A DNA stretch of 64,000 nucleotides from Ulota crispa (taxonomy: Eukaryota > Streptophyta > Bryopsida > Orthotrichales > Orthotrichaceae): assembly GCA_963920765.1 (NCBI GenBank), contig OY987244.1, positions 1,490,501 to 1,554,500 of the forward strand, given 5' to 3'. Each line of letters opens with the position of its first letter. Within the stretch, counting starts at the first letter, position 1. Both the position numbers and the translations under genes were made by a program. Below, one piece after another: positions 4,743 through 61,581 of the stretch. The notes under the pieces are model-generated. The model saw only the letters and a program-made list of their open reading frames with translations, did no database searches and had not been told where the DNA came from.

Positions 4743-4981
4743 TTAACCCCTAAAGGACCAAGCAACCCTTTGCGACCAATACAATATAGGGTATTTTTCT
4801 TGTATTTGGAATGCATCTACACTTTATTACATTTGAGATCAACAAAGAAGTTAGAATGTAAATTAAAATTATTTTAGTGAGGTAGTCAAGACCCTAAATT
4901 AAAAAATTGTTGGTAGCAAATACCAGTTATACAACAACGTACATACTATGTATTATAGTAGCTCGGTCCTTCAAGGGTTAA
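4743..4981. mobile_element. TTAA-flanked piggyBac-like MITE, short subfamily A
   Basis: TTAA stands at both ends (4743-4746, 4978-4981). The inverted termini are CCCCTAAAGGACCAAGC and, read inward from the right, CCCTTGAAGGACCGAGC. The core contains TATTTTTCTTGTATTTGGAA, which is shared, partly in the opposite orientation, with the elements at 6932, 51294 and 56306. It is 239 bp with no coding capacity. Confidence 0.8.
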
Positions 4982-5260
4982 AATGGTTTTGGTATGTCAT
5001 GCAATATTCTAATTATGAACATGGAGTTTGTAGCAATAGAGAAAGTTTAAACCATATTTACAAGCGTATTTGTGATTCCGTTGAACTTTAATACCAATCA
5101 CAAATACAAACATTCAATTAAAAAAAATTAGAGTAGTGTTGACTACCTGTTTTTGTTAAAAGTTTTACTTTAATTCACAATAATTACGCATAGTTACATA
5201 ATTTGGGATTAGCAATTTGTACATTAAAAAAGTATATATGAAAACCAAGAACATGCAAGT

Positions 5261-5884
5261 AATGGCACAATGAAGGTACCCCGAGCACAACCATCTGGAC
5301 TGCCCAAAAAGACACTAAAATTCCCTAAAACTCTCCTTTTGAACATCTATTTGTACACATAATATTAGTTATTAACATTTTAGCAAATTTTTGACTGTAC
5401 ATGCATCTAGAAACTATTAAGTGTGTGTCTTTGCCATTTGAAAAGTAAAATTGCAATTCTTTAATGTTTTATATTGGATGTGGAAGAACTAACTCTAAAT
5501 TGTTGTTTAAATTTTTCCATAACAATTAGCTTTAGTACTTTATGGGCTAATACACTTGAAATGTATGGATCATTCATGTTTGTACAACTATAATCCAATT
5601 TTTCCAAATCCTATCAAGCAAATTTGTAGTCTGGATGAGTCCTTTACTTCATTTTGTTGAAATGAGAACGTTTTGAAATCTCTCACAAAAACACTCATCT
5701 GGACAAGATAACATACATCAATCAATCAATTAATTATTTTTTCTAATCTACAAGTATAAGCAACTTCTTGTCAAAAAGTAAACATTGTAACACTATCTAG
5801 TAGGACTTAATAAATAGAAGAAGTATTGTAGGTAAAACCAAATCAGCTTTAAACTGTCCTTTTTGGTACCCCAATTGTGCCATT
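5261..5884. mobile_element. MITE candidate with AATGGCACAAT...GGTACC ends
   Basis: The left end AATGGCACAATGAAGGTACC matches the right end read inward (AATGGCACAATTGGGGTACC) apart from a few bases. The 624-bp interior is AT-rich and non-coding. The superfamily is not assignable and a clear target duplication is not visible, so this is a candidate only. Confidence 0.5.
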
Positions 5885-6931
5885 GTCACGTGACACAAAA
5901 TGAGAAGATGATACAATTGGCATTTTTACAAGTTCAGAAAGAGCTACTTATAATTTGGTACAGACAAGAAGTGCAATATGATTTACAAAGAGTATATATG
6001 TAGTCATATAATCCATCATTATAATCAATGTCAGATTTTGAAGGACAAAATCCAAATTTCATATGATTAGGATTGGCCTTAAAAAAATGTCACATCTAAA
6101 TGAGATGTTTTTGTATACAAAACATTCAAGCACACCAGTAGTTTCTTTCAAGAATTTTGCAATAAATAATCTAGTTGTGTTTACTTATACCAGTTTACTA
6201 AACCGAATTAAAAATCATAAAATTATAGTAATGAAAATCTTGATTATCCTTGCAAACTGTAAGGCCTGGCTAACACCAAATTTGTTTAGGAAAAGTCTAA
6301 AATAATCAAAGTACGTGAATTGAGGTCAAATATAAGGTAAATAACACTTAAATTAAGAAAGGTAAAGACAAAGTGAAAATAAAAACTCATAAAATCAAAA
6401 ATTTCAAGCTAAAGGACTTAGTGCATACCTCCAATAGATGATGAGGTTATAACTAAATTTGTCCATTAATCAACCATGTATGCAATCCCCTGCAAATGCT
6501 ATAATTTTACTAAAGATCTAAAAGGTATTAAAGTAAAAGTCACTCAATGCACATCAATGTGTGGGAAAAATTGGCTGCTAGTTCATTGTTAGCTAGTGAA
6601 ATTGGAAAAAAAGGGTTGTATTTTGAAATTGCCAGTAAAAAAACCGGTTAGATTTTACTAAAAAATCTAAATATAGCACTAGTAATGTAAATTTAGAAAA
6701 ATATCCGGCATAGTTTGGAAGGAAACTAGTTGAATACATAAAACGCCGGTTTTTAGCTGGTGAAGGCCAAAAAATTTCCCAAACACTGAATTGGACCTTT
6801 TACTTTGCCGTCTTTTGCTCTTGTCAAAAGGTGGTCACAAAAACACCTATTTTGGAAAATATCACTTCCAATTCAAGTATAAGAGTAGTGCAAGAACTTT
6901 TGGATTGTTTTTTTGCTCCGTTTTGTGGTGA
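5885..6931. other. AT-rich intergenic DNA
   Basis: Nothing recognisable was seen. The 80-codon open frame at 6063-6305 has no known motif and the composition of random AT-rich sequence. Confidence 0.3.
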
Positions 6932-7172
6932 TTAACCCTTAAACAACTAGCTGACCATAGTACACAATATATACGGTGCTGTATAATTGGCATTTGCTAC
7001 CAAAAAAAAGTTTTCATTTGGGATCTTGACTAGCTCTCTAGAACTGCATTGATCTATTTTCTAACGTCTTTGTTGATCTCAAATGTAGTTAAGGTGTGGA
7101 TGCATTCCAAATACAAGAAAAATATATTGTATTATACTGTGTACTATGGTCAGTTGATCGTTTAAGGGTTAA
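6932..7172. mobile_element. TTAA-flanked piggyBac-like MITE, subfamily A
   Basis: TTAA stands at 6932-6935 and 7169-7172. The inverted ends agree over about 30 bp (CCCTTAAACAACTAGCTGACC against CCCTTAAACGATCAACTGACC read inward). The interior is the reverse complement of the core found at 4743-4981. It is 241 bp and non-coding. Confidence 0.8.
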
Positions 7173-7211
7173 ACACTGTTGGTAATGGATCATGTTACCC
7201 TTTTTGTGTAT

Positions 7212-7541
7212 TAAGGTAAGAGGCTTGTAAACTGACCATCTAAGAGCTGAAACTAAATTTTGGGGAGGTGGAACTTTTTGATATATTTTTCAGTAAATTT
7301 TCCTTGAAAGACAAGAGGAATTGGCATCTAACTCAAGTTATTTTGTATTTTTCAGAACAATGCGGAATTAGTTATGAAATTTTGAAGTAAAAAGGTCATT
7401 GGGCTCTAAAATTGTGCACCTCCTCAAATGTGCATCCACTACACATTATGGAAAGGCTGTGAATATACCATATATTGACGGAGATCATTTGGGAAGGTGA
7501 GCGGAATTAGTGCCCTAACACAATTCGAGCCTCTTACCTTA
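7212..7541. mobile_element. TA-flanked MITE with AGGTAAGAGGCT ends
   Basis: The left end TAAGGTAAGAGGCTTG and the right end (inward TAAGGTAAGAGGCTCG) form a near-perfect terminal inverted repeat bounded by TA. A relative of almost the same length (329 against 330 bp) lies at 54408-54736 and shares the internal string CATCTAAG(A/G)GCTGAAACT. The TA duplication suggests the Tc1/mariner group; this is inference. Confidence 0.7.
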
Positions 7542-8000
7542 CTAGTGGTGCCTTTTCTACACAATTTTCCTGCCTGCTGAACCCTACATAGGTTTCTCAA
7601 TTGGCTGCAGAGTACATCAGCATGAAAGATGAATTTCTGTATGCTACATTTGTTAGAACATTTGTAGTGCAGTCCCTCAATCTTTTGCTTCAGCTGTACA
7701 AAGTTTTGCTTCTGAACGCTTTTGAAAGGGCAGAAGATCCGAGCAATTTTTTTGCAAATAAGGTATGATTCTGTCAGTGAAGTCTGATTAAACATACCCA
7801 AATATCTTCCGAACTTTGATTAAGGTCAAGAATGGTATTTAAATATTGTATGCCATAAAAAGAAGAGGTCAAAGTCAATTAGTATAATGGTAAAATTTCT
7901 AAATTTATGCCCTGATTTCAATGTGTTCATATTGAGCAATGAATTAATTTTTCGTTATTTAGATCTGTTTTGGTGCACTGTCATTTAGATTTGCTTAGGT
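7542..8000. other. Intergenic DNA, no recognised feature
   Basis: The minus-strand open frame at 7439-7801 starts outside and runs into the MITE at 7212-7541, so it is not a gene. Two similar short strings near 7960-8000 (GATCTGTTTTGGTGCA and GATTTGCTTAGGTGCA) form a small direct repeat beside the plastid-derived relic. Confidence 0.3.
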
Positions 8001-9430
8001 GCATTTTTGGGTAAAAAAATAAACAAATTATTAATTAAAAATAAAGGATTAGACCTTTCTCATAGAGAACAAAAATTATTGGTTCAATTTTTTAATCCCT
8101 AAAGGACCAAAGTCCCCTTGAGGGACAAATGGGATTTCAGGCATGTACCTATGGCTAATTTACTTTTTGTGATTTTCTAAAACTTTTATTGAAGGTGGGG
8201 AATTCAAAGATCTACATGGGCATCTAATTTTTTCTTCATTCCAACATTTATTGAAGAAGTTATGCATGAATTTATGAAAAATGGTGTTTGAGGGGCAGCC
8301 AAAAACTTCTTTAAAAATTTCATTTTTTTCAAATAAAAAACTAAAGTAGGTTCTTTAGACTTATATAGACATGGGCAGCTTTGAACTATTCAATTGTGAT
8401 AAATGAAATGAAAGTTATGATGAGTTTTTGTTTGCAGGCAGTTCTAGATTCTCTACTCTAAAATAAACTTTGAAGTACATTAACTTACTCAATTTTCAAT
8501 ATTTTGAAAAAACAAAAACAAAACCAAAGGATGTAGATTGTTTATCACAACATCATAACTGTTGCAATTTTCATTTTTCACTTTTTTAATGAAATTCTTA
8601 ACAATTTAATGTTTTGAATCATTCTCTACTTCTTTTTACTTACTATTTTTTCCCATGTGTTGTATAGTTTCAAATGATTTGAAAATTCTCCCTCACATAC
8701 CTAACTTGATCTCCCACATGGGAAAAATAAACCTCAACTTTGTGTAGAGTAATTTTTTTGATCTAAGAGTGGTCAAAGCCTTCTGAAAATTCTGGGCAGT
8801 AGCAAAAAAAACTCATTTCTGCAATTCAAATGTAAATATCTCGTTCATTTGTGTGTAGATTGAGTTGAGTTTTTTCACCATGTTTACCTCTCGTAGTCTA
8901 CTGTAATATCTTACGGTTGAATTCTTGTAAAAAACTTTTTTTCTTAACATTGTACTTGTTGCCCCAAAGTGGCAATTTTCTGTGTTTTTCACAGAAAAAA
9001 TTGCTTGATCCTTTAGGGGTTAATCATTGATAAAAGTATTGAACAATATAGATCAAAACTTACTTCTAATGCTAGTTTTAAAGGTTTTCAATTTGGTAAT
9101 TCAACTGTGAAACAATACAAATTTACAAACTGTTTAGAAAACTTAACTGAAGATTATCAAAAAAGTTTAGTAAATTATCCGTTTCATCAATTTTATTTAG
9201 CAAAAAATTTAGTTTTTTTAATCTTAAAGGCAAAAAAGTATTTCCTTAAATATCCCGTGGTAAATTAGTACTTTAAAATCAACTTTATATAAAAACTTGT
9301 TCCACTCGAAGTAAAACTTTTTTCTTCCAAAGGAATTTTATTAATAGGTTCATTAGAAACTGGACGCTCTTATTTAGTTAAAAATCTACCAGCAAATTCT
9401 TTTGTTCCTCTAATAAAGATATCTATATAG
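8001..9430 (+). pseudogene. ycf2: Nuclear relic of plastid ycf2 split by a MITE
   Basis: Translating 8001-8091 gives INKLLIKNKGLDLSHREQ and then KLLVQF. After the element at 8092-9023, translation continues IDKSIEQYRSKLTSNASF, NYPFHQFYLAKNLVFL, and finally [20 protein letters not shown] with [12 protein letters not shown]. The last part is the P-loop (Walker A) region of Ycf2, the giant plastid AAA-type ATPase. Only about 170 codons of a protein exceeding 2000 residues are present. The frame has in-frame stops and a shift near 9265, and the segment ends at a stop near 9430. This is a nuclear plastid DNA fragment, non-functional. The spelling of the protein fits bryophyte or fern plastids better than seed plants. 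Confidence 0.85.
8092..9023. mobile_element. TTAA-flanked piggyBac-like MITE, subfamily B, inside ycf2 relic
   Basis: TTAA occurs at 8092-8095 and 9020-9023. The inverted ends are TCCCTAAAGGACCAAAG and inward CCCCTAAAGGATCAAGC. At 932 bp it matches the elements at 22554-23487 and 26485-27416 along its length. No open frame of useful size is present. Confidence 0.85.
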
Positions 9431-10051: not shown

Positions 10052-12104
10052 AGATTTGAAAGTGCAAGAACACAAGCATAATTGAAAATACAACTAGCAC
10101 AACTGAAATTCAAACATGGAGCAAAGTAGAATGCAAACAAGTTCACAAATGCAAGTGCAAACTTCAAATAGGTTCAGGGCTTAAGGGTGAACAATTGAAC
10201 ATGAGCTCTCATACTGCGTTTCAAAACACATCACCATATAGCAAAAAATGAATCTAGTATGGAACATTTACAGTTAAAAAAAATTCTTAGAGTAGGGCAC
10301 GCCTAAGTTAATCAAGGTCTGCCGTGATCTAGCCTTTGGAGTTACAGTCTCAGATACTGCGACTCTGCAAAAAGTGTACAAAATGATGCAAATGGATTAG
10401 CAAAGTGGGAGTATGAGACTTGAACATCATGCATTGTGCCTAAACTCAGAGTACATGGAATTGAAAAAAGCATTGGTATCAACGTCTGCTTACTCGGTCA
10501 GTTGGTGTGAACCATAGTGTCAAGGATGGCTTCATGAAGCATGAATTCGGCAACTGAAAAGATTGCACTGTCCACTGTCAAGTCTTGGAATGGACTTGTT
10601 TTCTACATGTTGTTGCAGAGAGGCTGATCCAAAATCCAGTTTTGACTGAAAAGAGTGCAATTTGCCTGGAACTAAGCCTCAACAAACTCCTCTTTGAAGG
10701 GCCACCGTGGTTGCTCTAGGTTCTTGAACTCTTGTCTCGTTGAGGAGAATGCTGCCTACACAATCGTGCCATCTATGTATTCTTACCAGGACCTGCACGT
10801 CTCGTGAGCGCCAGCAATTGCGACAAAAACAACTACCTTTGGTTGGTGCAGAAGAGTCCAATCCCACAGATCTTGCCCTTGCGCCTACAGCAACACAACA
10901 GGGAGAACACAATTGCAGAGCGGGTATTCTAGACATCCATCTGATACATTCCACTCCATGTTTCTTGGACTAACATCCCCTGAGTTCCCTCCAACACTAC
11001 CCATCGAAGCTGTATTGACCTCCACCATAGACAATGCGGACACAAACGATGCAAGAGAGGATCAAACCTAGTAGTAGTAAAGCACTGATATCACGCACAA
11101 AAACAAGTGTATAGAATGAAACCCTGGTTCTAGAAGACAAAAAGAGCAGTACTCCCAGCAAGCAACAACAACAATATTGCAGCAAACCCCGGACTTCTAG
11201 CACTTGCGGTTTACAATGATTGCATAACAACGACAAGGGAAACGTTGAGGAACCCAGCAGTGGTTTTGCACAATCACCTTTGCCAAAGCTTGCACATCAC
11301 AAAAAAGATAGAGACTGAGAATAGAACTTCCAAACTAAAATTGACAATGCAATACCAAGTTGGATCTAGGGTATTAGGACTTGGCAAAGATGGCCGCCGC
11401 AATGTTGATAGATAGGTCAGTAGAATGCTAAGTGAAGAAAAAAAGAGGGCTCAGGTCTAGAAATGTAGAACCTTCTCATGGCAGTTGAAACATGGGCGGT
11501 GTGAATACTGGGAGGTGGTTGGGCCCTTCGGGTTGATTTAGTCACACTCAAATTTCAAACCTGTAATCTACTACCAAATCCATTCTCTCTAGCCAAATCC
11601 AGTATCGCAAGCAACTAGGACACCCCATAAATGTTGCCATGAGGGATGGGTAGGCACATGCCATGATGGTGCAATCCGGCAAATTCTGAAATTCATGCCT
11701 TTTGTTCTTACTAGAAAGTTCTCAGTTCTCAAGTCTTAAGGATACGTTAGCCTTAGTGATTGAACATACTAAAGGTTTAGGGGAAATGAAATGAACTTTA
11801 GAACAATACCTGATTATGTCATAGAACTCAAGATTTTTAATATTGAACAAAAACAACAACCACTCTCATCCCACATTCCTAAGCCTTGCACTATAAACCA
11901 TATGTACATACAGCACTTTTCTCACAAAAACTTCTCAACAAACTCATCTAAAAAACTTCCATCAACATGTTCAAGCTCAAAAACATCATTGCTAGCATCA
12001 AATGACATAGTCACAATGCAAATTATGGAATCTATGTCTATCCAGATAGAATCAGAGTGGTCATACTTAAATTTCAAAAATCCAAGGACTCTCCTGAAAT
12101 ATCA
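10052..12104. other. Downstream flank of the degenerate transposase-like gene
   Basis: This stretch is moderately richer in GC than typical intergenic DNA here, especially 10500-11700, and may be the 3' part of the mobile element whose gene lies at 12105-16335. Open frames at 10679-10954 and 10997-11236 (minus) and 10740-10973 and 11791-12372 (plus) have no recognised domain. No terminal inverted repeat could be found by eye. Confidence 0.3.
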
Positions 12105-15100
12105 AGTAAACCATGAACCCTCATGCAATATTACCCTTTTTCTTACTTTTGTTGACATCTCGATTGAAAAGGTCAATTGGTTGTCTACAATTCCCCACCT
12201 TGTTCCCACTATTTGTCTCATCTTTTGGACTCGACCAACACACCAAGTGCCCCAATCAGCTCTGTCGAGGACACAAGTGCTCTTCAAATTCTTGGATGGC
12301 CGTCCTTTGGAACGCTTCCCTATAGCTGAAAGTAATAGAGGGGTAGATCTTGTACTTCTTTGCACAAAATAAACTCCACAAACCATCCCAAGCCCTAACA
12401 ACATTGTCTTCATAGAAGACAAAGCCCAAATATAGTCATCTGAATTGTCAAAGTACATAGAATTCTTAACTCTAGTGAGTCTATCCTTTGAAAGGAACGG
12501 GTTAGTGTTAAGCTGTGATACAAGCGTAGACTTGTAGATATTATGACCACCGAATTCAACAAAAGGGATTATCTTTTGGGCTGGAACACCAATGATGACG
12601 CCACTGCTGTTTGACTGGAGTAGATCCACCACTGCATCCGCCGTCTTGGCTTCTAGCAAAGGTAATGAGTCAAACCCGTCATCAACAATGTCTTCCTCAC
12701 CCTCCAGCCCAAAATCTGAGTCTATGCCAAAACTCTGTAAGGGACGTGACTGCGAGTCCTCACTAAGAACCTGAGCGTCGCCGTCTTCTCCCCTCACTGG
12801 CACCATAACAGGAATGTAAGCAAAGGATTGGGAGTCATCCCGTTTGGCCAACCAAGGGATAGTAAACCAATTCCCATCAAGGCCATGTACAGAAGGGGCC
12901 ATGGTCAGTAGCATCAACAGCTTCCGGGCCTCTTTTAGCCCTTCTTGAAGGGCACAAGTTACATTGGTAGGGGTAGATATTCTACTATAATCAGCCAAAT
13001 TGCAAGGAAATTCATGCTCAAGAAGAAGGTGCAATTCAACCCAAACATTCTTCATCTTGTTATGCACTTTCCCGAATTTCAGCCCCCCTTTTCTATGCTC
13101 ATTGGCCGCTAATTGGTTTAGGATACTAGCTGTATCAACAAGTTGGTGGAAATCATATGCCCTCTCATGGCCTTCCGTTCCACTAATTTTGGAAAAAAAA
13201 AATTCACATGCGTCACTCTAGTGAGGTGCAAAGGAACTGCCAAGCTTGGATACTTGTCCCTAAAATGCGAGATTAGCAAGACAACAAAGTGACAGGACAT
13301 CTGTACATCAAGAAAGCCCTGATGGGAGACAAAATTGATAGCAGGCCAAAGTGTTTTGGAATTCCCTCCAATAGCATGATTTTTGTGTTTAAACCAAAGC
13401 CTCCAAATTCAAAAGAAAAAAGAAACCTTTGCTGCTAACACTATTCTAGCCCTCAAATCCAACCTAGGAGACAAAAAAATTTCAATGTAGTTAGCGCAAA
13501 TCTCCAAGTATAGTTTAGTTCCAAGGGTGCGCTCTTGATGCACCTCATTCGAAGTTTGTAAAAGTGCTAAGCAATCTCTAGTTTGCTTTTGGCACAATCT
13601 CTGGGCAAATGCCCAGTTCTGGTGATCCTTCTGATTTGAGTCCTCTAGCTTCAGGCCGTGCTGCTCAAAAGAGAATTTATTGTAAACAAGTCCAATATGT
13701 GTTAAACTCATTACATTTGACCCAAGCCGTGGAGTTCTTACCGGCAAATCCATGGGATTAATGAGTTTTTTTCCATTATGTATAAAGTCTCGATAGTGTA
13801 AATCGGAGGCATTATTGTCATCATCCAAGGTTGCCGTGAAAATCCAGCCAGGCCACCCCGTCATTAAGCGTCACCCAGGGGTACCCCTATACTCTTTGAG
13901 CATTAGCTGCAGCCGCCTGGAATCTCTGTCACTGGAGTGGCCTACAATCGGCCCTACTGCATCCTTGTAGTGAGTGTCCCACAAGCCTTGAATTCTGCCC
14001 CATTGGCATTTCACCCATTAAGAATCAAACGCATTGCAAGTATAGTACACACACAAAACTAATCTAGGTAACTTGAAGTGAAGAGGGCTCACCATCACTA
14101 CTCTAGCAAAACCTCCAACTTTGTTAGAACAAAACTCATCAACAATTTTGTTGTACCCACTCTCCCCATTGCCAACAATTGGTTTAAAATATGATTGATA
14201 GACATGGTTTTCTAGTGGACCACAAAACCCAGCTAGAGTGTCAAATCTTTCCTCATAAGACACCCTAGATCTCACCTTTGTTTTGTCCTCCGCTAGTATC
14301 ACTGGAACTGGCCCTTCTATCCCACATGCCATTTTTGCATCTCTGTAAACGTCTGCAATGTTCTGAAACTTTTTTTGATGCTCACCTGGCAAATGTTGGA
14401 TTCCCTTCTTATTATCTCTTTTTATAGTACTGTAACTTGGTCTAGCATAATTTAGAGCAAACAAATTGCACATTCTCCGACCTCCATACACCTTCATTGT
14501 TTGGGCAAGCGCCTTTGAATTCTTTGAAAACCAGAAACCCTCCTTCCTGCAATTTAGGTTAGCAGCGACATCCTGCAAAAAATCCCATAAGGCCGGCTTT
14601 CCCCCAAACACCCCATATCTAAGCGCCCATAGAATGTCCTCGCAAAACTTAAACAAGTTGTGTTCATTAGAAGAAGAAATTGCAAACTCTTCTAGGATTG
14701 GTTGGCTAACTTTCAACTACGCAATCCTCACTTTTGCTGCCCAATGGTACAACCTTGCAATTCTTAGTTTTTTAGCTATTGACCTACTATGTGTAGTGAG
14801 TTCATGCAGAGAAAGGTACCCAATTCTCCTTCCACCCTCTGTAGTTCTTGTCCCTTGTTTTTCAGTACACAAATCCTCCTTTACCACCCTTAGCCTGAAG
14901 TCTATTTGCAATGAAATTGAGCAACACATACTACATGTTAGATTAGGCCAAGGTGAGTTAGTGACTGAAACTCTAGAGCATTGACGGTGTTTAAAAATTC
15001 CAACAATTACCACAGAATCACCTTCAACCTCCAAAATTTCTTGCAGCCAAGATTCAACATACCAATTTAGACCAAGTTTGACATCCATTAGCAAATTGTG

Positions 15101-16335
15101 CACCTCAAAAGACTTTCCGCCATACATAATTTGTAGGCCTCTAAAGCCCCAACACATCAGCAGTTTACAATCACTGCGGTCTATAATGAAGGAATTACTT
15201 ACCTCCTATCTATGGCTGTAGAACAAATGTAGCAACCTCTAGCTTGTGTGGAAACTGTCGCCAAAAGATTTTGTTGGTCTTCTTCTACTATCAGAAAGTA
15301 CCGCTGTTGACTTAGGGTTTTGCCTCTCCAGCAACTTCTCTAAATGTCGACTGCCCATTGCATGGTTCATTAAATTTGCCTCCAGGTTCTTTTTTGGAGG
15401 GCATAAACTGTACACGTTGTTGCAAGTGAAGCATCACATCTTCCACCAAAAGCTCTTCAATTCAGCTGACTAAGGATCCCCTCCAACCAACTGAAAAGTC
15501 TCCCATGTAGGATCCAGGGAATCATTGACACCCTTTAAGATGTTAACACCTTCTTGTACCAATTTCTTGTGATCTTCATTTGTCAAGACCACAATTTTTT
15601 TACCCTTTGCCAAAGACTGCAAGTGATTGCACTAGTCCAAACCCTTTCTGGAGCACCAACTACAAATGTGTTGGTTGCTCATAATATGGCTTTTTCTAAA
15701 ATTAGAGAATAAGCTTGAAATTTGGTCTTTTGAGTGTTGTCCATCTATACCGCCAAACCCCTTCTTGCACTCCAGGCAATATAGAATAACAATGGCATTG
15801 CCGGCCTGATCATAAGATTTCAGAGCCCAATTGTGATCCTTGAGGGACACCTCCTTCAACGCAAGCCTCAATTTCTCTTCCCCCCCCCCCCGATACATTG
15901 CCATTATTTCCGCAGGTAAGAGACTAGATTGAACTAGACTCTTTCCCGTTGAAGCGCTGATCCCAAAACACAATGGAAGTTCATCTGCAATATCATTGTT
16001 CCCACTACTCAATGGAGGGAACTCAACTGCCTCACCGTCCATGTTGGTACTTTGCAGGCTATTGATGACAGGTTCTTCTCCTCCAGTGCGCTGTCGCTTC
16101 CGGGGCAAATCCACCACCTCATTGTCCATTGCAAGGATCATGTAGACGGAGTGGTCAATATCGTTTAGGGACTCCAATGTAATTGCCACTCGGCACAGCT
16201 CCTCCAGGTCCAGTACTGATAGTCAAATTTTACTACACTTTTCCCTTCTAAGCAAACCTTTAGGTCTGCTAGTGTCTCACCATCAATAGCTTTCATTGTA
16301 CCCATGCACTTTGGAGGAGCATTCTCATCAGCCAA
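12105..16335 (-). pseudogene. Degenerate zinc-finger, transposase-like gene
   Basis: One minus-strand frame can be followed from 16213 to about 13200. It is interrupted by stops near 15630, 15473, 15437, 14717, 14026 and 13868. The coding look continues in other frames on each side: 16335-16215 (APPKCMGTMKAIDGETL) and 13190-12105. The latter shift falls at an A homopolymer near 13195. Visible parts in order: a nuclear-localisation-like PRKRQR; a C-x2-C...H-x5-H finger (CLECKKGF...FRKSHIMSNQHI); a second C-x2-C...H finger (CFTCNNVYSLC...NHAMGSRH); a block with VPVILAEDKTKVRSRVSY and FDTLAGFCG; then DAVGPIVGHSSDRDSRRLQL; then DFIHNGKKLINPMDLPVR; and a C-terminal KGRPSKNLK hook with WCVGRVQKMRQ. 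The acidic residues in AEDKT and SSDRDS could be catalytic, as in DDE/D enzymes, but the superfamily is not assigned. It is neither a piggyBac transposase nor a retroelement by motif. Some stops near 15240-15480 could instead mark introns. Confidence 0.65.
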
Positions 16336-19445: not shown

Positions 19446-20259
19446 ATCTCCAAAACCTGTTGCGCGACTGCAACAACAATGGATTTCCAACAAATGTGTG
19501 CGGAAGCTCAGCCCAAGTCTTTCGACATTTTAGGGGAGGAGCTGGACAGCTCGCTGCGTTTGACCTCACTCCATGAGTGAGTAGAGCTTGTTCCACAAAT
19601 GGCTCTCAATAACACTAATTTTTTTTGAAGCTCGAAACAAACCGAAAGGCGCTTCAGTAGATGATAGAAATAATTGGATGAAAACCACTTGAATGGAACA
19701 AAAAAAAGTATTCAAATGTTGTATCCTTATTATGAGAAAATTTGATGGATGCGCATGGAGGGTGTGATGTTTGTTTAGATGCTCTTGGTTTTTCAAGAAT
19801 TGCACAAACATCCTTATGTATTAGTTATTTCTCAGCATAAAAATGTTTTACTAGGAAATTGAAAGGCTCATTATATCACAAGCCCTACCTAAAAGTTGGT
19901 GACATGCAACTTTGTTAATTGTCAAGAAGAAAATTTCTATAATCATGAAAATATATCAACACTAACTGTGTACTTTTGAAAAGAAAAGACATTTATACAA
20001 CATTGTAGATTATAGGGATATCCATCAATTTTCCCCTTGTTTTATAAAGTAGAATGTGTTAGAAAATTTATTTTACCATCCATTCACATGGTCTAAATCT
20101 CACAAACTTGTCTCTGTAACTATTGTATTATGCAAGACATAAGCTTACAAGTTTGTAACACCTTAGAAACTAACTCTTTCAATAGACTCTTAAAAAAATT
20201 CTTCAAAAAATTATGCTAAAATCTTCTTGATATTCACCACAAACTCAATTGAATACTGT
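19446..20259. other. Intergenic DNA with a weak copy of the foldback family
   Basis: Around 19775-19830, text like TTGGTTTTTCAAGAATTGCACAAACATCC matches the arms of the foldback MITE at 61930-62292. No gene is recognisable; the open frame at 19566-19811 overlaps this repeat. Confidence 0.35.
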
Positions 20260-44018: not shown

Positions 44019-44249
44019 TTAACCCCTGAAGGGCCCTTGGGCTCTAGAGATACGGTACCAAATACGGTCGCAGCCAATATTCAGAAGTTTGAATCACTTG
44101 GAAATTAAGTGTTACAACCATACATATTGCAAGGTTGTATGATGGTGGGTGCATAATTTTTTTGGAAAGCCCTTATAGTAGCTCAAATATGTCCGTACAT
44201 ATGGATGTATATATAGCTGCAAAGGGCGTTTGGGCCCTTCAAGGGTTAA
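44019..44249. mobile_element. TTAA-flanked piggyBac-like MITE, single short type
   Basis: TTAA stands at 44019-44022 and 44246-44249. The ends are CCCCTGAAGGGCCCTTGG and inward CCCTTGAAGGGCCCAAACG. It is 231 bp with an unrelated interior. Its right part is duplicated immediately downstream. Confidence 0.8.
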
Positions 44250-44330
44250 CCCTTGAGTGATGTCCGTACATATGGATGTATATATAGTTGCAAAGGGCGT
44301 TCGGGCCCTTCAAGGGTTAACCCTTGAGTG
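44189..44330. repeat. 71-bp tandem duplication across a MITE junction
   Basis: Bases 44189-44259 are repeated as 44260-44330 with about two differences (GCTGC/GTTGC and GTTTGGG/GTTCGGG). The unit runs from inside one MITE, across its right TTAA, into the first bases of the next element (CCCTTGAGTG). Confidence 0.9.
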
Positions 44331-45078: not shown

Positions 45079-46291
45079 GGTGAGTGCACCCATACCCAAT
45101 CATTTAAGCAATTATGCTACAAAGTACAAAGAGCTTGAGGCAATGCATATTTTTCTTGTGTAGGAAGATAAGAAATATTGGAATTGCAAATTTTTCAAAA
45201 TTTTATTTGCAAAAATGAGTTTACTATGAATTTGGGAGTCAAAAAGTGCTTTTGACCCATTGCCAACCTCTAAACTCATGCAATTCTGATAATAGACAAA
45301 CTATTTTCTGCTCATTACTCCTTACTTTCCCCTTCACCACTTTGGAACATATGACATGACTTAAATGGTCCCAAGGGAGATGCAAGCTAAGGGTGACCAT
45401 TTGTGGCAAAAAAAGTCCTTTTTTGAGTACAAAATGGAGTGTTGTTGTGTTCCCAACAAGAATTCTCCCTCTTCTCAATGAGAGTTCCAAATTCCAAAAG
45501 TTGGCCATCCTAATTTATGCCATTCTAAGACACTTGAGAAAAGAAAAAAACTAAAAAAAATGATTTAACTTAGAGAAATCAATGTCCAAAAATTTTAGTC
45601 ATTCATGAGCACATTGTATTCCCAATGAGAATTCTCCCTCTTCTCAATGAGAGTTTCAAATTCCAAAGGTTGACCACCCTATTTTATGCCATTCTAAGAC
45701 ACTCAAGAAAAGAAAAACACTAAAAAAAATGATTTAACTTGGAGAAATCAATCCCCCAAAAAGGCCAAAAATTGCAGTAATTCAGGAGCACATAAAAGTC
45801 CTTTTCTCCAAAATATAAATTACATTCATAAAAAAATTATTTCAAAATGTAATCATCCCAATCTTCCAATAATGATGCCAAAAGATTGTGCCCATCTTAT
45901 GAGTCTACATATCAATTCAAGAGTCCTTTTTAGCAAGAAAAAAGCACTGTGACAATTTTAGGAGCTATGTTCAAAAGTCCTTTTCTCTTATCACATTAGA
46001 GATATATATTTTATTTTGGTGAATTGGATCATCAACAAGTTGACTTTCTAAATATGAGTCCTCTCTCTCTTAAAGACTTCATTTTTCAATGAAACTATAT
46101 CCATTTGCTAAAAAAACCCTTCATTTTTACCCTTGTGACTTACATAGTAGTCACCCTTAGCTTGCATCCTCCCCCCAACCTTCAAAAGAAAAGAAAAATG
46201 CATTCCAAGCTATGCTCGAGACTAATATTGGAAACAACACACCCTATTGGTTGGGTTTGAAGCAATGTTGGCAATGGGTGCACTCACCTTA
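45076..46291. mobile_element. TA-flanked MITE with AGGTGAGTGCACCCAT ends, 1.2 kb
   Basis: The left end TAAGGTGAGTGCACCCAT is repeated exactly, inverted, at 46274-46291. The insertion site is the TTAA closing the previous element, whose last TA serves as its left flank. The interior holds a 169-bp tandem duplication and no convincing gene. Confidence 0.8.
45450..45792. repeat. Tandem duplication of about 169 bp inside the MITE
   Basis: The block starting TTCCCAACAAGAATTCTCCC recurs from about 45619 as TTCCCAATGAGAATTCTCCC. Both continue with TTCTCAATGAGAGTT, TATGCCATTCTAAGACAC and AAAAAAAATGATTTAACTT. Confidence 0.8.
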
Positions 46292-48233: not shown

Positions 48234-49812
48234 TTATAACATGGGGACGTTTGGAGAGCATTCCAGAGGTTCCGTGGGGTACCGCTCGGTGTCGGTGCAG
48301 TAGTCGTAGATTTGGTAGTTTTGCTTGACCCACAGGATTTGCTCCGCCTGGTCATGGTCGATGGTTTGGAAAGCAGAAGCCTCCCACCAGTGGCTGGTGG
48401 TGGCAGTGCAGGGGCTGATGTTGTTGTCGGTGACCACGCACCCGTCCAGAGTGTCGAACTCCGTGAAGGAGACGACGAAGGGTGCGTGAGTCCAGTTCAA
48501 CTTGACCAGCCCTCCTTGCGTCGCCCACTGGTCGCCGTTCCACAGGCTGGCGTACAACCCCATGGGCTTGCTGTTGGGATACGCCATGCCTTGCTGGTTT
48601 TTGAACACTCGAATGGGCTTGTCATCCACCATGAATCTGCCACAAACCACGTTAATACCACGTTAATACCAAAGCTTTTCAGCAGGTCTTCAAAACTTTG
48701 GAACAGAACTTGGGATCAAAACTTTGGAATGAAAGTTGGTAATGAAACTTTGGAACAAAACTTGGGAACAAAACTTGGGAACAAAACTTGGGAACAAAGC
48801 ACTGGAATGAAGATTAATTGCTGCATGTTGCAGTTACAGGCAGCATGGTTCATTACAAATTGGTCGACTAGGTTTGGATTTGTGATGGTGGTGAGATGTG
48901 TGTGTACATGATCTGGTTCGTGTTCCAGAGGACACCGTAATTGTGGAAATCTGCACTTGGGTCGAACCACAGGTTGATTCGTTGCTCCCTGCCTCCCACT
49001 CCATTGGCAAACACATTGGTTTGCAGCACGTATGGCTGTCCTGATGAGTTGCCCAGAAACTCGAAGTCTAGCTCATCATGGGCTGGTTGGGCAGAAGATA
49101 ACTGCTCATGCACACACCACCATCAATTAGAACACGAATTAATTGGCTCGGGAAGCACTTGCATTCACGGTTTTTTTATAAGCTTCTACCTAATGCACTC
49201 CTAACGTTTATATGCAAATGATGGATTTTTGAATTCGAAAGAAATGCATCAAGAATGGCTTAATTCTCATCATCTAGACGACGTGTTAAATCAAACAAGG
49301 TGGCTAAAAGCCACCACTGCTGATAATAGCTCCATAGAGTTGAATGGTGGAAATGTACCGAGCGAGTACATTTTCAAGAGACTTACGTAATATGCAGTTA
49401 CAGTGCCAGCCGAATCACCCGGCACTAGCTTGATCTTCATAGTGATGTTGCCAAATAAATACTGGTACTTGGATCCAAATCCAGAAGCTAACCCAAACCA
49501 CATTAAAAAAGAATTCAGTCAGTGTATATGGAAGAAGCGGCAGAAATGCAGACCTGAACAACATTGGTAAAGAATGGATATGACCTAGAAAATTGCTATT
49601 TAAAATTGTGGAGATTGCAACAGCAAGGGCAGTAGATTCTTACCGGCAACTTGATCCAGCACAATCTTGGCCTCTTGACCATCAGGCGAAACTTGAACGT
49701 GGACCCCGTCGGTGGAGAAAGCAGTGAACTCCTCGTCAAATGTAGCTCCATAGACCATGCCCACCATAGCCAAGCACAAGACTGCAAAGATTGCCCTACT
49801 CTGGAACCCCAT
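48234..49812 (-). CDS. Xyloglucan endotransglucosylase/hydrolase (XTH, GH16), 4 exons
   Basis: In transcript order the exons are 49812-49644, 49487-49387, 49101-48908 and 48636-48234, phases 1, 0 and 2, giving 288 residues. The first ATG opens a signal peptide ([16 protein letters not shown]) followed by [11 protein letters not shown]. The catalytic strand is [11 protein letters not shown] with glycosylation site N-S-S. Then follow [50 protein letters not shown] and the XET C-terminal part [12 protein letters not shown]. Near the end PPEC is PLEC, a mild change. The 71-bp intron-like spacing seen in the others is kept, but intron 3 carries a tandem repeat. It is in opposite orientation to the gene at 39041-40701, about 7.5 kb away, so it is a convergent neighbour. 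It should be a secreted wall enzyme. Confidence 0.95.
48690..48812 (-). repeat. Tandem repeat in intron 3 of the third XTH gene
   Basis: Units of 13-15 bp of the form GGAACAAAACTTG (plus strand) recur about eight times; three consecutive GGGAACAAAACTTG copies are exact, the others degenerate. The array lies wholly within the intron 48637-48907. Confidence 0.85.
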
Positions 49813-51293: not shown

Positions 51294-51516
51294 TTAACCC
51301 CTAAACGTCTGAGCGTGCTGCTCCGACCAGGGTATTTTTCTTGTATTTGGAATGGATCCACACCTCTACTACATTTGAAACCAACAAAGAAGCTGGAGAA
51401 TAGATCAATGCGGTTTTAGTGAGCTACTTGAGATCCCAAATTAAATTTCTTATTGGTAACAAATGACAATTATACGTCAGCATATATACTATGCCCCATG
51501 GACGTTTAAGGGTTAA
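51294..51516. mobile_element. TTAA-flanked piggyBac-like MITE, subfamily A
   Basis: TTAA stands at 51294-51297 and 51513-51516. The ends are CCCCTAAACGTCTGAGCG and inward CCCTTAAACGTCCATGGG. The core TATTTTTCTTGTATTTGGAA is shared with 4743-4981 in the same orientation. It is 223 bp. Confidence 0.8.
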
Positions 51517-52567: not shown

Positions 52568-52802
52568 TTAACCCGTAAGCGCCCCAGCGATAGGATCCTG
52601 TCGTTGGAAACCCCAAGTTTATCTCATTTTCTCTCAATCCGTATTGTGAAAAAAGTTGTGGCTGGTCCACATCATCAAAGAAGGTAGTCCTTTTGCAAAT
52701 CCTATAGACACTTTTTTTGAATGTAATTTTCCAAACTGTGGTGACCATTAAACCCCCATTTTCTCCTAAACCCTAAAACAACTCTGGGCGCTCAGGGGTT
52801 TA
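52568..52802. mobile_element. piggyBac-like MITE, single short type with AGCGCCCC ends
   Basis: The left end is TTAACCCGTAAGCGCCCCAG. The right end read inward is TAAACCCCTGAGCGCCCAGAG, so the right flank is TTTA, one base off TTAA. Just inside the left end CGATAGGATCCTGTCG is a small palindrome, comparable to the one in 33582-33831. It is 235 bp. Confidence 0.7.
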
Positions 52803-53393: not shown

Positions 53394-54348
53394 TTAACCC
53401 CTAAATGCCCAAGGCACCAGATTCTGGTGTTCAAAAAATTTCAGGAAACTTTGAAACCCTATTGAAGTTATAGATTTTATTGTTTTGAGGTTTTTTTTTG
53501 TGGAAAAGTTGCGGTTGAAGTTAGCTTCACCATTCAAATTCAACTTCCTTCATATCTTATTCCATTTGTTTTTGGTGGACGGTTAACTACAAGCATACAT
53601 TTTCAATTGTGAATAGTGCCGTGAATAGTATTGTGAATAGTGTCATGAATAGTGTCATGAATAGTGTTGTGAATAGTGTAACAGAGCCTATGAGAAGTTG
53701 CCACATTGAAAAGACGGGCATCAAGTTGAGCAAAAGGTGAAGATTTCCCTTGGGCACTCCCTCAAGCAATAAGGGCCTTTTTACTAAAATTTTGACATCT
53801 AACAAAATCTAAAAGTGCTTTTGGACTAATTTCACTTGGAATGTCTTTGTTATAGAAATTAGGATCATTTCATCGTTGAATTTTCTTTCATTCATAATGA
53901 TTTTTGGTCAATAATTGAAGTTGAAAATTTCTTTGTATGAGACGGTTGTGTTTTGACAGTTGCATTGCAGGCTCATTTGTGAAATTGTGGTCATGGATTT
54001 GGAAGAGGGGCCATTGGTTTTGAAGTAACAACAATAAACACTAAAGCATCCTAAGTGGTTGTCTCCCAATTTTGTATTTAAGAGTTGCCAATTTGCATTA
54101 GAAGTTTTGGGCAGCTAAAAAAAAAGCAAAAAATTCCATACTCATCATCATTCAATCACAAATATCTAAATGAACGCGCAACCATTTGGGATTCTTTTTG
54201 GGTAATGCCATTTAGAAACCTTAAAGTTCAAGATTCAACGGTTACAATTTCTTTTTGATGTTTAATGATGATCTTATAAGGACAATTCAAAAACTTCAAA
54301 ACTACCTTCTGAAAACGAGAAAAACACCCTTGGGCATTTAGGGGTTAA
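53394..54348. mobile_element. TTAA-flanked piggyBac-like MITE, subfamily D
   Basis: TTAA stands at 53394-53397 and 54345-54348. The ends are CCCCTAAATGCCCAAGGC and inward CCCCTAAATGCCCAAGGG, an almost perfect terminal repeat. The interior matches 32528-33369. It contains the 12-bp tandem repeat at 53609-53680. At 955 bp it has no gene. Confidence 0.85.
53609..53680. repeat. Six 12-bp tandem units inside a MITE
   Basis: Six consecutive units of the form (G/A)TGAATAGTGTC, differing at one to three positions, fill 72 bp exactly. The corresponding part of the relative at 32528-33369 lacks the array. Confidence 0.9.
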
Positions 54349-54407: not shown

Positions 54408-54736
54408 TAAGGTAGTGTGCTTATAAACCGTCCATCTAAGGGCTGAAACTGAATTTTGGGAGGTGACTTCTTAAACTATTTTTTCAGTAAATTTTCCATG
54501 AAAAACAAGAAGAATTGACATTTAACCCAAGTTGTTTCATGTTTTTTGGAGCTTTGTGAATTTAGTTATGAAATTTTGAAGTGGAAAGGTCATAGGTCTC
54601 TAAAACCGCCCACCTCCTCAAATTTACATCACTTTTATATTATTGAAAGGCTAGGAAAATTAGCATGTACCAGCAAAGTACATTTGATAAGGTGAGTAAT
54701 TTTAGAGCCTAAGCAGAATATGAGCAGAATACCTTA
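54408..54736. mobile_element. TA-flanked MITE, relative of 7212-7541
   Basis: It starts TAAGGTAGTGTGCTTATAAA and ends with ACCTTA. The interior CCATCTAAGGGCTGAAACTG and TTTTCAGTAAATTTTCC matches 7212-7541 in order. It is 329 bp. The right terminus is more decayed than the left. Confidence 0.65.
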
Positions 54737-54904
54737 GTAATTCAAAAAAAATGCCCATAGACACTACAAAATTTGCATTGACTGTAGCCTACGCGTTCAC
54801 AAATGTGACAAGAGATAGCACATTTTCTAATTAACTTTCATCTATGGTCACAATAATGTTTGAATTAGAATAACATTTGAATTACCATGGTGTTGAATTT
54901 AAAG

Positions 54905-54970: not shown

Positions 54971-54986
54971 TCTACAAGAAAAATTG

Positions 54987-56305: not shown

Positions 56306-56541
56306 CTAATGCCTTAAACGTCAGAAAGGCCCTTTGTGATTAGTACAATATGAGATATTTTTCTTGTATTTAAAATGGATCGACATCGCTACTATATTTG
56401 AAATCAACAAAAAAAAATTAGAATATAGATAAATATGATTCTAGTGAGCTATTTGAGATTCCAAGTTAAAATTGATAACAAATGCCAGATATATGGTAAC
56501 AAGTCTACTATGCTACTATGCCCCCTGACGTTAGGGGTTAA
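56306..56541. mobile_element. piggyBac-like MITE, subfamily A, decayed left end
   Basis: The right end is intact (TTAA 56538-56541, inward CCCCTAACGTCAGGGGG). The left end reads CTAATGCCTTAAACGTCAG where TTAACCC(C)TTAAACGTC is expected. The interior ATTTTTCTTGTATTTAAAAT and TTGAAATCAAC matches subfamily A. It is about 236 bp. Confidence 0.7.
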
Positions 56542-58426: not shown

Positions 58427-59209
58427 TTAACCCATGAGCGCCCCAGCTCCCCATATATGGCCTCCCATGATTTCAAAGCCCTATTTTGAGAGACTGGATC
58501 TAACTTTTTGATCTTGCTATAAACTACAATTATGAAGGCATTCAAGTTGTTCATGCCAATGGAGTAATGGCGATGAAAATCAAATTGTTGTACAAGCGTT
58601 GCATGAGATTTGAGTGGATGAAACACCATACAAGGAGTGGTGGTAAGCATATGGGGTGTGGTGGCAAGCAGCGTTTTATAAACTGCAACCGGTCAATATC
58701 CCTTGCAAGTTTCCTTGTGTACACTTTGTGATAGTAAGAAAGTTGTTAGCAAGGGTTCAAGCATGTCTAAACCTTTATTATGGCAACTGTTACCAATTGT
58801 GCCAATCATTGTTTTTCGTGCAATAGAGATTTGAAACCCTAAAACTTGACTTAAAAGGAAGTGCAATCTTCAATAATTTACAAGTGTGTGCATTCACATC
58901 TAATCTTGCTGCTCACAAAATTTGAGATGAATTTGGGGCTTCTCAAATTTTGTAAAAATCATCAAATAGCAACTACCTACCAAAAAGTGAGATTTTGTCA
59001 TCACATGTTGTTTGATCAAATGTTATAATCTCCCATCTCCCACAATAGATTCTTCTCAAAATTTACAAGTCATTTTATAAGTAGGTATTTCACTATTTTC
59101 AATGGTCACTTTTTGAGAATCATCCAATTGACCAAGATACGATGCATCAAAGTTGTTGGTCCCCAGAAACCCCAATTTAGCGAAAACAGCCTGGGCGCTC
59201 AGGAGTTAA
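58427..59209. mobile_element. TTAA-flanked piggyBac-like MITE, subfamily F
   Basis: TTAA stands at 58427-58430 and 59206-59209. The ends are CCCATGAGCGCCCCAGC and inward CTCCTGAGCGCCCAGGC. The interior is the inverse of 44317-45078. It is 783 bp. Another TTAACCCCTC string begins at 59213, right beside it. Confidence 0.75.
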
Positions 59210-60619
59210 GTCTTAACCCCTCAAAAAACAACTATACAACCATATTGCCAGTTGTCATTTTTGAACTTACCTTAGTCGTTTAGATAGCGTATACATTTTA
59301 AACGGATATCTTTACTCTAAAATAAGACGTGATATCTACCTATGTAAAAGAAGTTTGAGCTGATTTTGTGAGAAGGTGGGGTGTCTAAATCTTGACAAAG
59401 AATGGTTAATTGATATCTATAACAAAACCGATTGATTAGATACACCTTTGATGGTGCTAATAAGTACCGAGTATAACGTCAAAAGAGTTCTAGCAATATT
59501 TGTATTGTTGACGTTGAAAAATGTATACCTATTTATTTTAGACCTTTGAGTCAATTTACCACTATTACAAAAAAAAATCCATATATACATGTGGTTGATA
59601 TAATGAAATGTTCTAAAAAATACTATGATCTTTTTAAATTTTGAATTAAGTTCAAAATCTAAATTAACATTTTGCATAAGATTTAGTTGTTTGAAGTTTA
59701 ACACATAGAGCTTGCACTTATACTAAAAAATGTAGTAGTTTTCAATAGTTTAATATGGAAGTAGAAACTAACCTCATCAAGTTTCATTTCCTTAGCTAAC
59801 TCGATGACAAAAAACATCATATTTCTTAAATTGGGAATTTTGTAACACTTTGGGTTTAAGTTGACCAACTTAAACCAAGCATTAGGGTACAGCTTGGGAA
59901 TCTGGTTTTTGCAATATCACAATTAGATTTAAGTAAAGAACATCCACTTTAAGAGTGAAAGGATTTTTAATGTTGAACACCTAAATTGAGACAATGGTCT
60001 AATTGGAAGTTTGCAACACAATATAAAATGACACAAATGTTTTTGCAGTCTCATATAAATAAGGTTCTTTGATGTTAACACTCAAATCAATAAATAGAGT
60101 GACAGTGATAGATGTAATTTTCATAAGAGTAATGAAGCACTTGTCACCTATGTAGAATTATAGAATTCCATATTTCAATATAAACTATAAATCTTCCAAA
60201 CAAACGAGGTAACAACTACTCACTTACTTTTCATTTTTCCACATTTTGGAAAAGCCTTGCTACTCCTTTAGCTACATAGCATTCAATAGCACTAGTAAAG
60301 GCTGCTCTCCCTCCAAGACAATGGTGTGGAATATTCTACACCATTCTTTAACTATGGGACACTTGGCTAAAATTGTCAAAGTTTATGAAAGAGAGGCTCA
60401 ATTTTGTGCACATACGTCGATGTGAGGGGCTAGCCATGCTAGAAAATTAATTAATTAGTTAATTAACTAATAATTTTGTCACGATGAAGTTCATGGATGA
60501 TATTGGATGATACTTGAAGAGAGAGAAAGGCAGCCTCTCTTTAGGCTACTAAGTATTATGTACCGGATCCACTACATCAAAACAATACTTAGATAATGTT
60601 GGAAGCTTTTTGCCCTACT
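59210..60619. other. AT-rich intergenic DNA
   Basis: A palindromic TTAATTAATTAGTTAATTAA-type string lies near 60449-60470. No gene is recognisable. Confidence 0.3.
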
Positions 60620-61581
60620 TTAACCTCTAAAGGACCAAGTGGTTGTCCAACAACCACTTGAGAACTTGGGTAGGGTCATATGGAGTCAATTTTTATTGGA
60701 TGTTCTCAAAATTGTTACACAAGGTGTATATGTATCTCCCAAGTGGAAATGTAAATTTCCCCAATTGGATGCCTGATTCAAAACTTTTGCTGCCCAAAAG
60801 AATTTGGGGAGCTTGGGCAATTTGGGCATCTTTAGAAAATCTTATGTTAAAACTCTTAACAACTTTTGAAATTTGGCTACTATGTAACTAAAAAAACATG
60901 GTGTACAATTGTCAAAAAAACAAATAAATTGAGCTCTCACATCACATTCTAAAGGGAGTCAAACTTTTTAAACTATGTTTGGGCAATTTCAAGAAAAAAT
61001 ATTTATCTCTAATTTCAGGCCCTATTATCTCTCAATTTACACATCCAAAGCTCTTGAAACTTTTTTTCACATATTCCGGATGTTTGTCGCTAACTTTATA
61101 CCATTCAAATTTCAATAAAAGACTTCCTCATTGCACAAGAAATCATGAAAGAATGACTAATGTATTGCCAATTCACCAAGCCTCCTTGCATTGCAGGGTG
61201 ATTTAGAATAAGCTAGATTCTATATTTGCATCCAAATTTTTTCATGAGTGAACCTATGTACCTAACATCATGTGCTTGTGAATGGTTAAAAAGCTCCTTT
61301 TTGTGTAAAGAAAAAAATTTACTCTAGGAAGGCTCAAAGTCTGCTAACCTTGTTTTGCAAGAATGAAAAAAAGTTGTTTTTCTCACTTCAAACATTATAA
61401 TCTTACAATTTGCACGGTCATATGGGCTGAATTTCTTTCACACATTAGTTTATCTATTTCACACACTTTTGTAAAGTTGAAGTTTAGAAAAAATACATAT
61501 TTCAATTTTGGGCAATGGACTAAAAATCGGCAGTTTCTGAGATTTTTTCTCAAAAAACACCCTTCCTCCTTTAGGGGTTTA
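60620..61581. mobile_element. piggyBac-like MITE, about 960 bp
   Basis: The left end is TTAACCTCTAAAGGACCAAG. The right end read inward is TAAACCCCTAAAGGAGGAAG, with the flank TTTA instead of TTAA. An extra inverted pair (GTGGTTGTCCAACAACCAC) follows the left end. Length is like subfamily B but the interior is only distantly similar at best. Confidence 0.7.

Follow-up and report, generated by a model that had tools for sequence, protein, structure and literature searches.

What moved the 19 short, TTAA-bounded segments that are spread over 64,000 bp of contig OY987244.1 of Ulota crispa (assembly GCA_963920765.1, positions 1,490,501 to 1,554,500) is the question raised by this locus. This whole stretch, analysed at its full length and referred to below as the window, is 64% A+T, and the segments lie in its intergenic space. 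We put a probability of roughly 0.84 on the reading that they are non-autonomous DNA transposons of the miniature inverted-repeat transposable element (MITE) type, once mobilised by one or more transposases of the piggyBac superfamily in this plant lineage. The functional assignment is a strong analogy, built on the ends of the elements and on the targets into which they were inserted.

All 19 segments are elements bounded by terminal inverted repeats (TIRs), and each start is a left boundary with an inverted partner end; the ends are irregular or decayed in two of them (the left TIR of D2 and the right end of Dm1 in the list below). TTAA stands in exact form on 33 of the 38 sides and on both sides of 14 elements. 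The non-exact sides are the left CTAA of A4, the left TTAG of G1, TTTA (+ strand) on the right of both B4 and K1, and the right side of Dm1, where TTAA was taken to have lost one base. Together the elements cover 10,791 bp, or 16.9% of the window. A preliminary description made from the letters had reported 19 segments with TTAA or a near variant and inverted ends, amounting to about 10.8 kb or one sixth of the window, and these statements are borne out. The elements, with coordinates in the window, are as follows.

4743-4981, + strand: A1, family A, 239 bp; TTAA on both sides, 75.7% identical to A2 in an exact TTAA-to-TTAA alignment.
6932-7172, - strand: A2, family A, 241 bp, with a long TIR; TTAA on both sides, inverted arms of 44 nt at 86%.
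51294-51516, + strand: A3, family A, 223 bp; TTAA on both sides.
56306-56541, + strand: A4, family A, 236 bp; CTAA on the left, TTAA on the right.
8092-9023, + strand: B1, family B, 932 bp; TTAA on both sides, 68% identical to B3 in an exact TTAA-to-TTAA alignment.
22554-23487, + strand: B2, family B, 934 bp; TTAA on both sides.
26485-27416, - strand: B3, family B, 932 bp; TTAA on both sides.
60620-61581, + strand: B4, family B, 962 bp; TTAA on the left, TTTA on the right; nhmmer E 9.6e-184 to the family model, of which B4 is itself a part.
23857-24222, - strand: CL, family C, 366 bp; TTAA on both sides, 63% identical to CR along its length.
24385-24749, + strand: CR, family C, 365 bp; nested in the left TIR of D1.
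24378-25387, - strand: D1, family D, 649 bp without the nested CR; TTAA on both sides, 78% identical to D2.
33828-34484, + strand: D2, family D, 657 bp; TTAA on both sides, the left one common with G1; left TIR irregular.
32528-33374, + strand: Dm1, family Dm, ~847 bp; right end decayed, 70% identical to Dm2 (BLAST).
53394-54348, + strand: Dm2, family Dm, 955 bp; TTAA on both sides, TTAACCCCTAAATGCCCAAGG at both ends.
33582-33831, + strand: G1, singleton, 250 bp; TTAG on the left, TTAA on the right.
44019-44249, + strand: H1, singleton, 231 bp; TTAA on both sides, a copy of the J1 start directly after the right one.
44317-45078, - strand: J1, family J, 762 bp; TTAA on both sides, 76% identical to J2.
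58427-59209, + strand: J2, family J, 783 bp; TTAA on both sides.
52568-52802, + strand: K1, singleton, 235 bp; TTAA on the left, TTTA on the right.

Most ends carry a common TIR of ~16 bp, roughly CCC(C/T)T(A/G)AA(G/C)G(C/A)CCAAG, that begins with a CCC tip (C in 34, 35 and 35 of the 38 ends at bp 1, 2 and 3) and keeps its pattern to about bp 16. Inward of this TIR the left and right ends differ in most elements, the exception being A2 with its 44-nt arms. A CCCTAAA-like heptamer within the TIR, in a window that is A+T-rich, would suit a chance or low-complexity artefact such as telomere-like CCCTAAA repeats in AT-rich DNA. Against this stand the 31 perfect CCCYTRAA cores of the window, 18 of them directly preceded by TTAA, where 20 second-order Markov randomisations gave means of 8.9 cores overall and 0.0 preceded by TTAA; the motif TTAACCCYTAAA likewise occurs at its full score (12/12) in 14 places, where 10 first-order randomisations averaged 0.0. 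The existence of multicopy families bounded at TTAA, together with the nested insertion of CR in D1, also speaks against an artefact, the probability of which we regard as negligible.

Self-BLAST and nhmmer sort the elements into eight families, with D and Dm counted as one. Family A has four copies (223-241 bp) and family B also four (932-962 bp), while C (365-366 bp), D (649-657 bp), Dm (~847 and 955 bp) and J (762-783 bp) have two each, and G, H and K are singletons of 231-250 bp. Clustering of the segments, as the preliminary description had envisaged, has thus given eight families whose ends yield the common ~16-bp TIR. End-to-end alignment in self-BLAST, reaching to within 5 bases of the TTAAs, was obtained for four of 15 within-family or D/Dm pairs (A1/A2, B1/B2, B1/B3 and J1/J2), the remaining pairs giving a partial alignment or overrunning an element end; with nhmmer family models, made from the same copies, every copy aligned essentially end to end. 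The palindromic ends of D and Dm are related (E ~5e-9), and weaker nhmmer matches (E 0.0003-0.004) link B to Dm, D to J and K to J through their right halves, so that the families joined in this way may have a common origin. Several families have little in common outside the TIR.

When all family models were run over the window with nhmmer, nothing outside the 19 elements reached E < 0.2 except a tandem duplication at 44259-44320. A twentieth element at 44246-44320 was considered and rejected, as the duplication of ~71 bp spans the H1/J1 junction and mimics an element; the preliminary description was right to omit it. Also rejected were a single 893-bp foldback element at 23857-24749, which consists of two family-C copies in opposite orientation with the right one nested in D1, and a shared host repeat past the right ends of A1 and A3, suggested by BLAST overrun, for which the alignment is weak.

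The clearest record of insertion is the position of CR within the left TIR of D1, which reads TTAACCC-TTAA-(CR)-TTAA-ATGCCCAAGG. Joining the D1 flanks with one TTAA gives TTAACCCTTAAATGCCCAAGG, which differs from the other end of D1 by one base over 21 bp, and the joined flanks match D2, whose end is uninterrupted, straight through the junction (77.6% over 415 positions); this is a computed restoration of an uninterrupted TIR and not an observed excision. Among 19 joined-flank queries the result was convincing only for CR in D1, the other spanning matches lying in the neighbourhood of the element itself or having E of at least 0.003. Two pairs abut with one common TTAA, namely G1 with D2, and H1 with a copy of the J1 start.

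A further feature of the ends concerns the DNA immediately inward of the TIR. In the cryo-electron microscopy structure of piggyBac, the first 16 bp are bound symmetrically and a dimer of cysteine-rich domains is described as binding a left-end palindrome that spans bp 17-33 (PMC7351741). In the window, counting bp from the CCC tip, six elements carry a strong palindrome in one end each, centred at bp 25 in B4, CL, D1 and Dm2 and at bp 24.5 in G1 and K1. The letters vary by family: TGGTTGT..ACAACCA in B4, AGGAC..GTCCT in C, GCACCA..TGGTGC in D1, AAAGGAAG..CTTCCTTT in G1, and an imperfect CGATAGG..CCTGTCG in K1. The palindromes, with p against the window background, are given here together with that of CR.

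60636-60660: left end of B4, centre bp 25, CAAGTGGTTGTCCAACAACCACTTG; p 0.00037.
24186-24202: one end of CL, bp 17-33, AGGACAAAAATCGTCCT on the - strand; p 0.0022.
24404-24422: left end of CR, bp 16-34, GAGGACAAAAAACGTCCTC; p 0.013.
25351-25367: one end of D1, bp 17-33, GCACCACATTTTGGTGC on the - strand; p 0.0011.
53414-53430: left end of Dm2, bp 17-33, GCACCAGATTCTGGTGT; p 0.0011.
33600-33619: left end of G1, perfect 20-bp palindrome, centre bp 24.5, AAAGGAAGTATACTTCCTTT; p 0.00037.
52584-52607: left end of K1, imperfect palindrome, centre bp 24.5, CCAGCGATAGGATCCTGTCGTTGG; p 0.0013.

Each end was scored at bp 25 +/- 0.5, with every other position in the window as background. At this centre p < 0.005 is reached by six of 38 ends, belonging to six of 19 elements and five of eight families (B, C, D/Dm, G and K). 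With the best end of each family corrected by Bonferroni, a Fisher combination over the eight families yields p = 1.6e-7, the top value of 87 centres (14-100); the best centre outside the bp-25 peak has a combined p of 0.014, and leaving out one family at a time raises the value to 1.1e-5 at worst. Control TTAA sites outside the elements gave 0 of 666 sides at p < 0.005, with ~3 expected. These positional tests followed a modest terminal-region palindrome score (mean 4.19 for ends, 3.42 for interiors, 3.65 outside the elements and 3.11 for shuffles) and an indecisive averaged profile.

By eye, the right ends of families B, D, Dm, J and K are often T-rich at about bp 18-27, as in GGTGTTTTTT and CTGTTTTCG. 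This stretch occupies the position where left ends may carry the palindrome, and is possibly a candidate second recognition feature.

Several results weigh against a piggyBac assignment. The scoring behind the value of 1.6e-7 was chosen after the palindromes had been spotted by eye. No more than six of the 19 elements reach p < 0.005, with CR and B2 at p < 0.02 and B1, B3, Dm1 and D2 failing; the palindrome of D2 is centred near bp 32 rather than 25, family A has no palindrome at centre 25 (family p = 1), and families H and J are weak there (p 0.18 and 0.27). In the profile averaged over all ends, centre 25 lies 2.4 standard deviations above the mean and ties with centre 83, and in the best-end profile centre 47.5 stands above it, the observed maximum being reached by 8 of 300 shuffles. 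Counts of strong palindromes at centres 24-26, observed over expected, were 10/4.8, 7/1.9, 13/10.1 and 8/3.8 at four stringencies, and the signal is therefore stringency-dependent. A search of 15 of the 19 elements revealed no further copy of the palindrome close to the other tip, which is unlike the piggyBac of Trichoplusia ni (T. ni). At bp 4 of the ends C (23/38) is more frequent than T (11/38), making CCCC commoner than CCCT. The preliminary description held that a piggyBac-type transposase is or was active. The insertions themselves imply past activity, but the 18 of 33 window open reading frames (ORFs) of at least 110 aa that were scanned with Pfam showed no piggyBac coding sequence (PF13843), and no coding parent with the same ends was found within the window. 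Finally, TTAA is palindromic, and a 4-bp duplication of TTAA and a 2-bp duplication of TA therefore give the same sequence, with TTAA on both sides in either case.

This last point bears directly on the alternative that the elements are Tc1/mariner-like (Stowaway-type) MITEs with a 2-bp TA duplication, ends of the form ACCC...GGGT and a very strong preference for TTAA, the TA lying inside every TTAA. A TA-flanked repeat does exist in the window, at 7212-7544 and 54408-54739; its two copies (74.6%) have ends AGGTA...TACCT and TA on both sides, and it is a probable TA-target MITE. It also provides an internal contrast, since the outer bases at its four sides are T, C, C and G and one side in four fits TTAA. 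In the 19 elements the four TTAA positions are kept, from outside inward, on 36, 35, 37 and 36 of 38 sides; the outer base, which is free in a plain TA element, is thus no less fixed than the TA core or the inner base. The deviant sides (A4, G1, B4, K1 and Dm1) are spread over outer, core and inner positions alike, and the deviant bases are never common to both sides of one element, a pattern that fits later mutation. No directly duplicated variant site, with the same non-TTAA target on both sides, was seen in the window. The palindrome at bp 25, moreover, fits piggyBac geometry when counted from the CCC tip. We therefore consider a TA-duplicating mover very unlikely; the preliminary description had ranked it as the lesser alternative, and it is now weakened by the outer base, although the palindromic target reads the same under both.

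Small size, lack of coding sequence, bounding TIRs and abundance in plants are traits that the elements share with Stowaway and Tourist MITEs, whose targets are described as TA or TWA (PMC12595863) and differ from the TTAA found here. A Tourist-type TTA or TAA direct repeat fits less well, as the two tips of an element would be unequal.

The comparison with published piggyBac systems supports a piggyBac-type mover, with some differences. T. ni piggyBac has CCC tips. The likeness extends to the TTAA target, the symmetrically bound first 16 bp, the left-end palindrome at bp 17-33 and the asymmetric ends (PMC7351741). In contrast to that element, those described here are non-coding, reside in a plant and have a palindrome whose sequence varies by family, and where T. 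ni piggyBac has the same 19-bp repeat in both ends, the 15 elements searched are without a second palindrome near the other tip. In that search only CL and CR rose above the 95% level of the shuffles, with matches ~209-234 bp from the other tip, and B2 and D2 equalled that level. The missing second palindrome places the arrangement nearer to piggyBat of Myotis lucifugus, where the palindrome is reported to follow the bp 11-16 motif by 3 bp and to occur at the left end only (PMC11707139). From the third copy of the piggyBat palindrome, at bp 107-120 with its motif at 99-104, our own arithmetic places the first at about bp 19-32, and its sequence is described as unrelated to that of piggyBac (PMC11707139). 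The difference is that piggyBat is an intact coding element with the left-end motif present three times, whereas the elements of the window have one copy.

Published counterparts in MITE form are the CMITEs of Acropora corals, piggyBac MITEs for which TTAA duplications, TIRs such as CCCTTTAAGCCCTA and element-in-element insertion at TTAA are reported (PMC2872659); these TIRs bear some likeness to the ones in the window. CMITEs are ~100 bp long with a conserved interior; the present elements are 223-962 bp long, belong to several families and occur in a plant. The same source gives a CC[C/T]T tip and a TIR of 12-19 bp as the mark of piggyBac (PMC2872659), and the ends in the window have C at bp 1-3 and a TIR of ~16 bp, longer in A2, with exact TTAA on both sides of 14 of the 19 elements. 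A one-end palindrome at about bp 17-33 occurs in five of the eight families; it is seen in piggyBac and piggyBat, but is not a universal criterion of the superfamily. In sum of target, CCC tips, ~16-bp TIR and palindrome, the piggyBac-type mobility proposed in the preliminary description is well supported.

The mover could instead belong to another superfamily with 4-bp duplications, Kolobok or Sola. Sola target duplications are 4 bp long. Sola elements are recorded for Physcomitrella and Capsicum (PMC9033089), and Kolobok elements and the related T2-MITEs share the TTAA duplication with those of the window (PMC9587614, PMC6004289); TTAA by itself is not diagnostic, and the view of the preliminary description that TTAA combined with CCC defines piggyBac is not supported, as Kolobok also duplicates TTAA (PMC9587614). 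Kolobok termini are given as 5'-RR..YY-3' (PMC9587614, PMC6004289), whereas the elements here end in CCC..GGG, C occupying each of bp 1-3 in 34-35 of 38 ends, and do not agree with that form. A Kolobok or Sola transposase as the mover seems to us highly improbable.

A piggyBac-type mover is also less foreign to plants than the preliminary description assumed when it set the superfamily apart from the usual land-plant groups. PiggyBac is described as occasional in plant genomes such as red algae (PMC12732532) and as present in plants (PMC8086355, PMC10140906), it is named among seven MITE superfamilies of angiosperms (PMC10004981), and a Ceratopteris repeat table has 1,230 PiggyBac entries (PMC6890710); a term search of a 2025 review of plant MITEs gave no mention of it (PMC12595863). 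PiggyBac MITEs are already listed for angiosperms, and the present set adds a well-marked member. No report of this element set was among the literature matches listed, and neither a position-fixed, sequence-variable palindrome in plant MITEs nor the use of such a criterion for TTAA MITEs appeared among them; the palindrome of this kind may be new for plant MITEs.

The history of the elements can be read from the divergence of copies and from the decay of target sites. The preliminary description spoke of a burst, and a single recent burst from one master element would suit the high density (19 elements in 64 kb), the one nested insertion and the two elements abutting others. It sits badly with the 9 of 16 within-family pairs compared, which are 50-78% identical (Kimura two-parameter distance 0.27-0.83), with several families that have little in common beyond the TIR, and with the lack of further copies in the window at E < 0.2 (nhmmer) apart from the tandem duplication at 44259-44320. 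By raw count 8 of 152 TTAA bases deviate, four of them from the right end of Dm1 read out of register, and the number falls to ~5 of 152 once that end is read as having lost one base. So few changed bases, set against copy identities of 50-78%, suggest that the insertions are more recent than the divergence among copies; the elements were chosen partly for having TTAA, a bias for which the absence of further nhmmer copies serves as the counter-check. The window thus holds no sign of a recent single-master amplification, and we think a burst very improbable. The lineages look instead to have diverged over a long time while still mobile.

The longest stop-to-stop ORF of each element is 39-92 aa, which in all 19 is below the maximum of 60 shuffles, and the nine pairwise alignments show no 3-base periodicity; the elements are apparently non-coding, as had been described. 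A coding remnant at ~12.1-16.2 kb (- strand) was considered as a parent and rejected, with no TTAACCC-type pair among the 25 listed of 81 inverted pairs; a nearby TTAACCC-like match at 16493 (11/12) points away from the remnant and has no equal partner. The five ORFs at 12102-16222 (- strand), of 153-371 aa, had no Pfam or NCBIfam match above cut-off, and one of them, compared with the PDB, had no match. The series resembles a transposon-type protein of non-seed plants that has no name, and it may be what is left of another DNA transposon. A scan of viral contigs with the TIR pattern found 0 matches, and Rfam likewise gave 0 at gathering thresholds.

The solved piggyBac complexes suggest, by analogy, how piggyBac-type mobilisation would proceed. 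The core of the transposase would bind the common 16-bp TIR, and its C-terminal cysteine-rich domains would engage, as a dimer, the palindrome that one end carries at about bp 17-33; the transposase would then cut at the CCC tips, and the element would be joined to a TTAA that becomes duplicated. The transposase itself, its cysteine-rich domain, the staggered cut and a duplication of 4 bp rather than 2 bp are all what this analogy predicts.

A more tentative proposal, which we hold to be possible but on balance doubtful, is that the lineage long hosted diversified piggyBac transposases with a common TIR recognition and differing specificities of the cysteine-rich domain, and that the MITEs retained the 16-bp TIR while trading the palindromic docking module next to it. 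D1 and D2, 78% identical, bear different end palindromes. The palindromic end of D1 resembles that of Dm2 (67% over 146 positions), and the D2 palindrome, GAGGACA...TGTCCTC, is like the GAGGAC...GTCCTC of family C, lying near bp 32 behind an irregular TIR. If the proposal holds, piggyBac-type MITEs could change from one transposase to another by swapping palindromes while the geometry stays nearly fixed. The palindromes of the window are natural sequence variants with which the site choice of the cysteine-rich domain could be tested, and a palindrome of fixed distance and variable sequence could help to tell TTAA MITEs of piggyBac type from Kolobok or TA elements by sequence alone. If a land plant does carry abundant piggyBac-type elements with intact ends, a superfamily studied mostly in animals would have a real plant history, and it should be possible to find a piggyBac transposase native to plants.

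The window has further features besides the TTAA elements. Two large foldback (MITE-like) palindromes at 20257-21144 and 27781-28603 are self-complementary at 87% and 83%, are 67-71% alike in pieces and have ends near TACAGTACCCTC; they form a family distinct from the TTAA elements. A tandem repeat at 45445-45793 has a unit of ~170-180 bp in two copies (85%). Three related xyloglucan endotransglycosylase (XTH) genes or parts of genes lie at 1682-2350, 39825-40701 and 48234-49105; the translated ORFs of the first and third have GH16 and xyloglucan endotransglycosylase (XET) C-terminal domains above Pfam cut-offs, and the middle one (39825-40701) was assigned by DNA similarity and translation.

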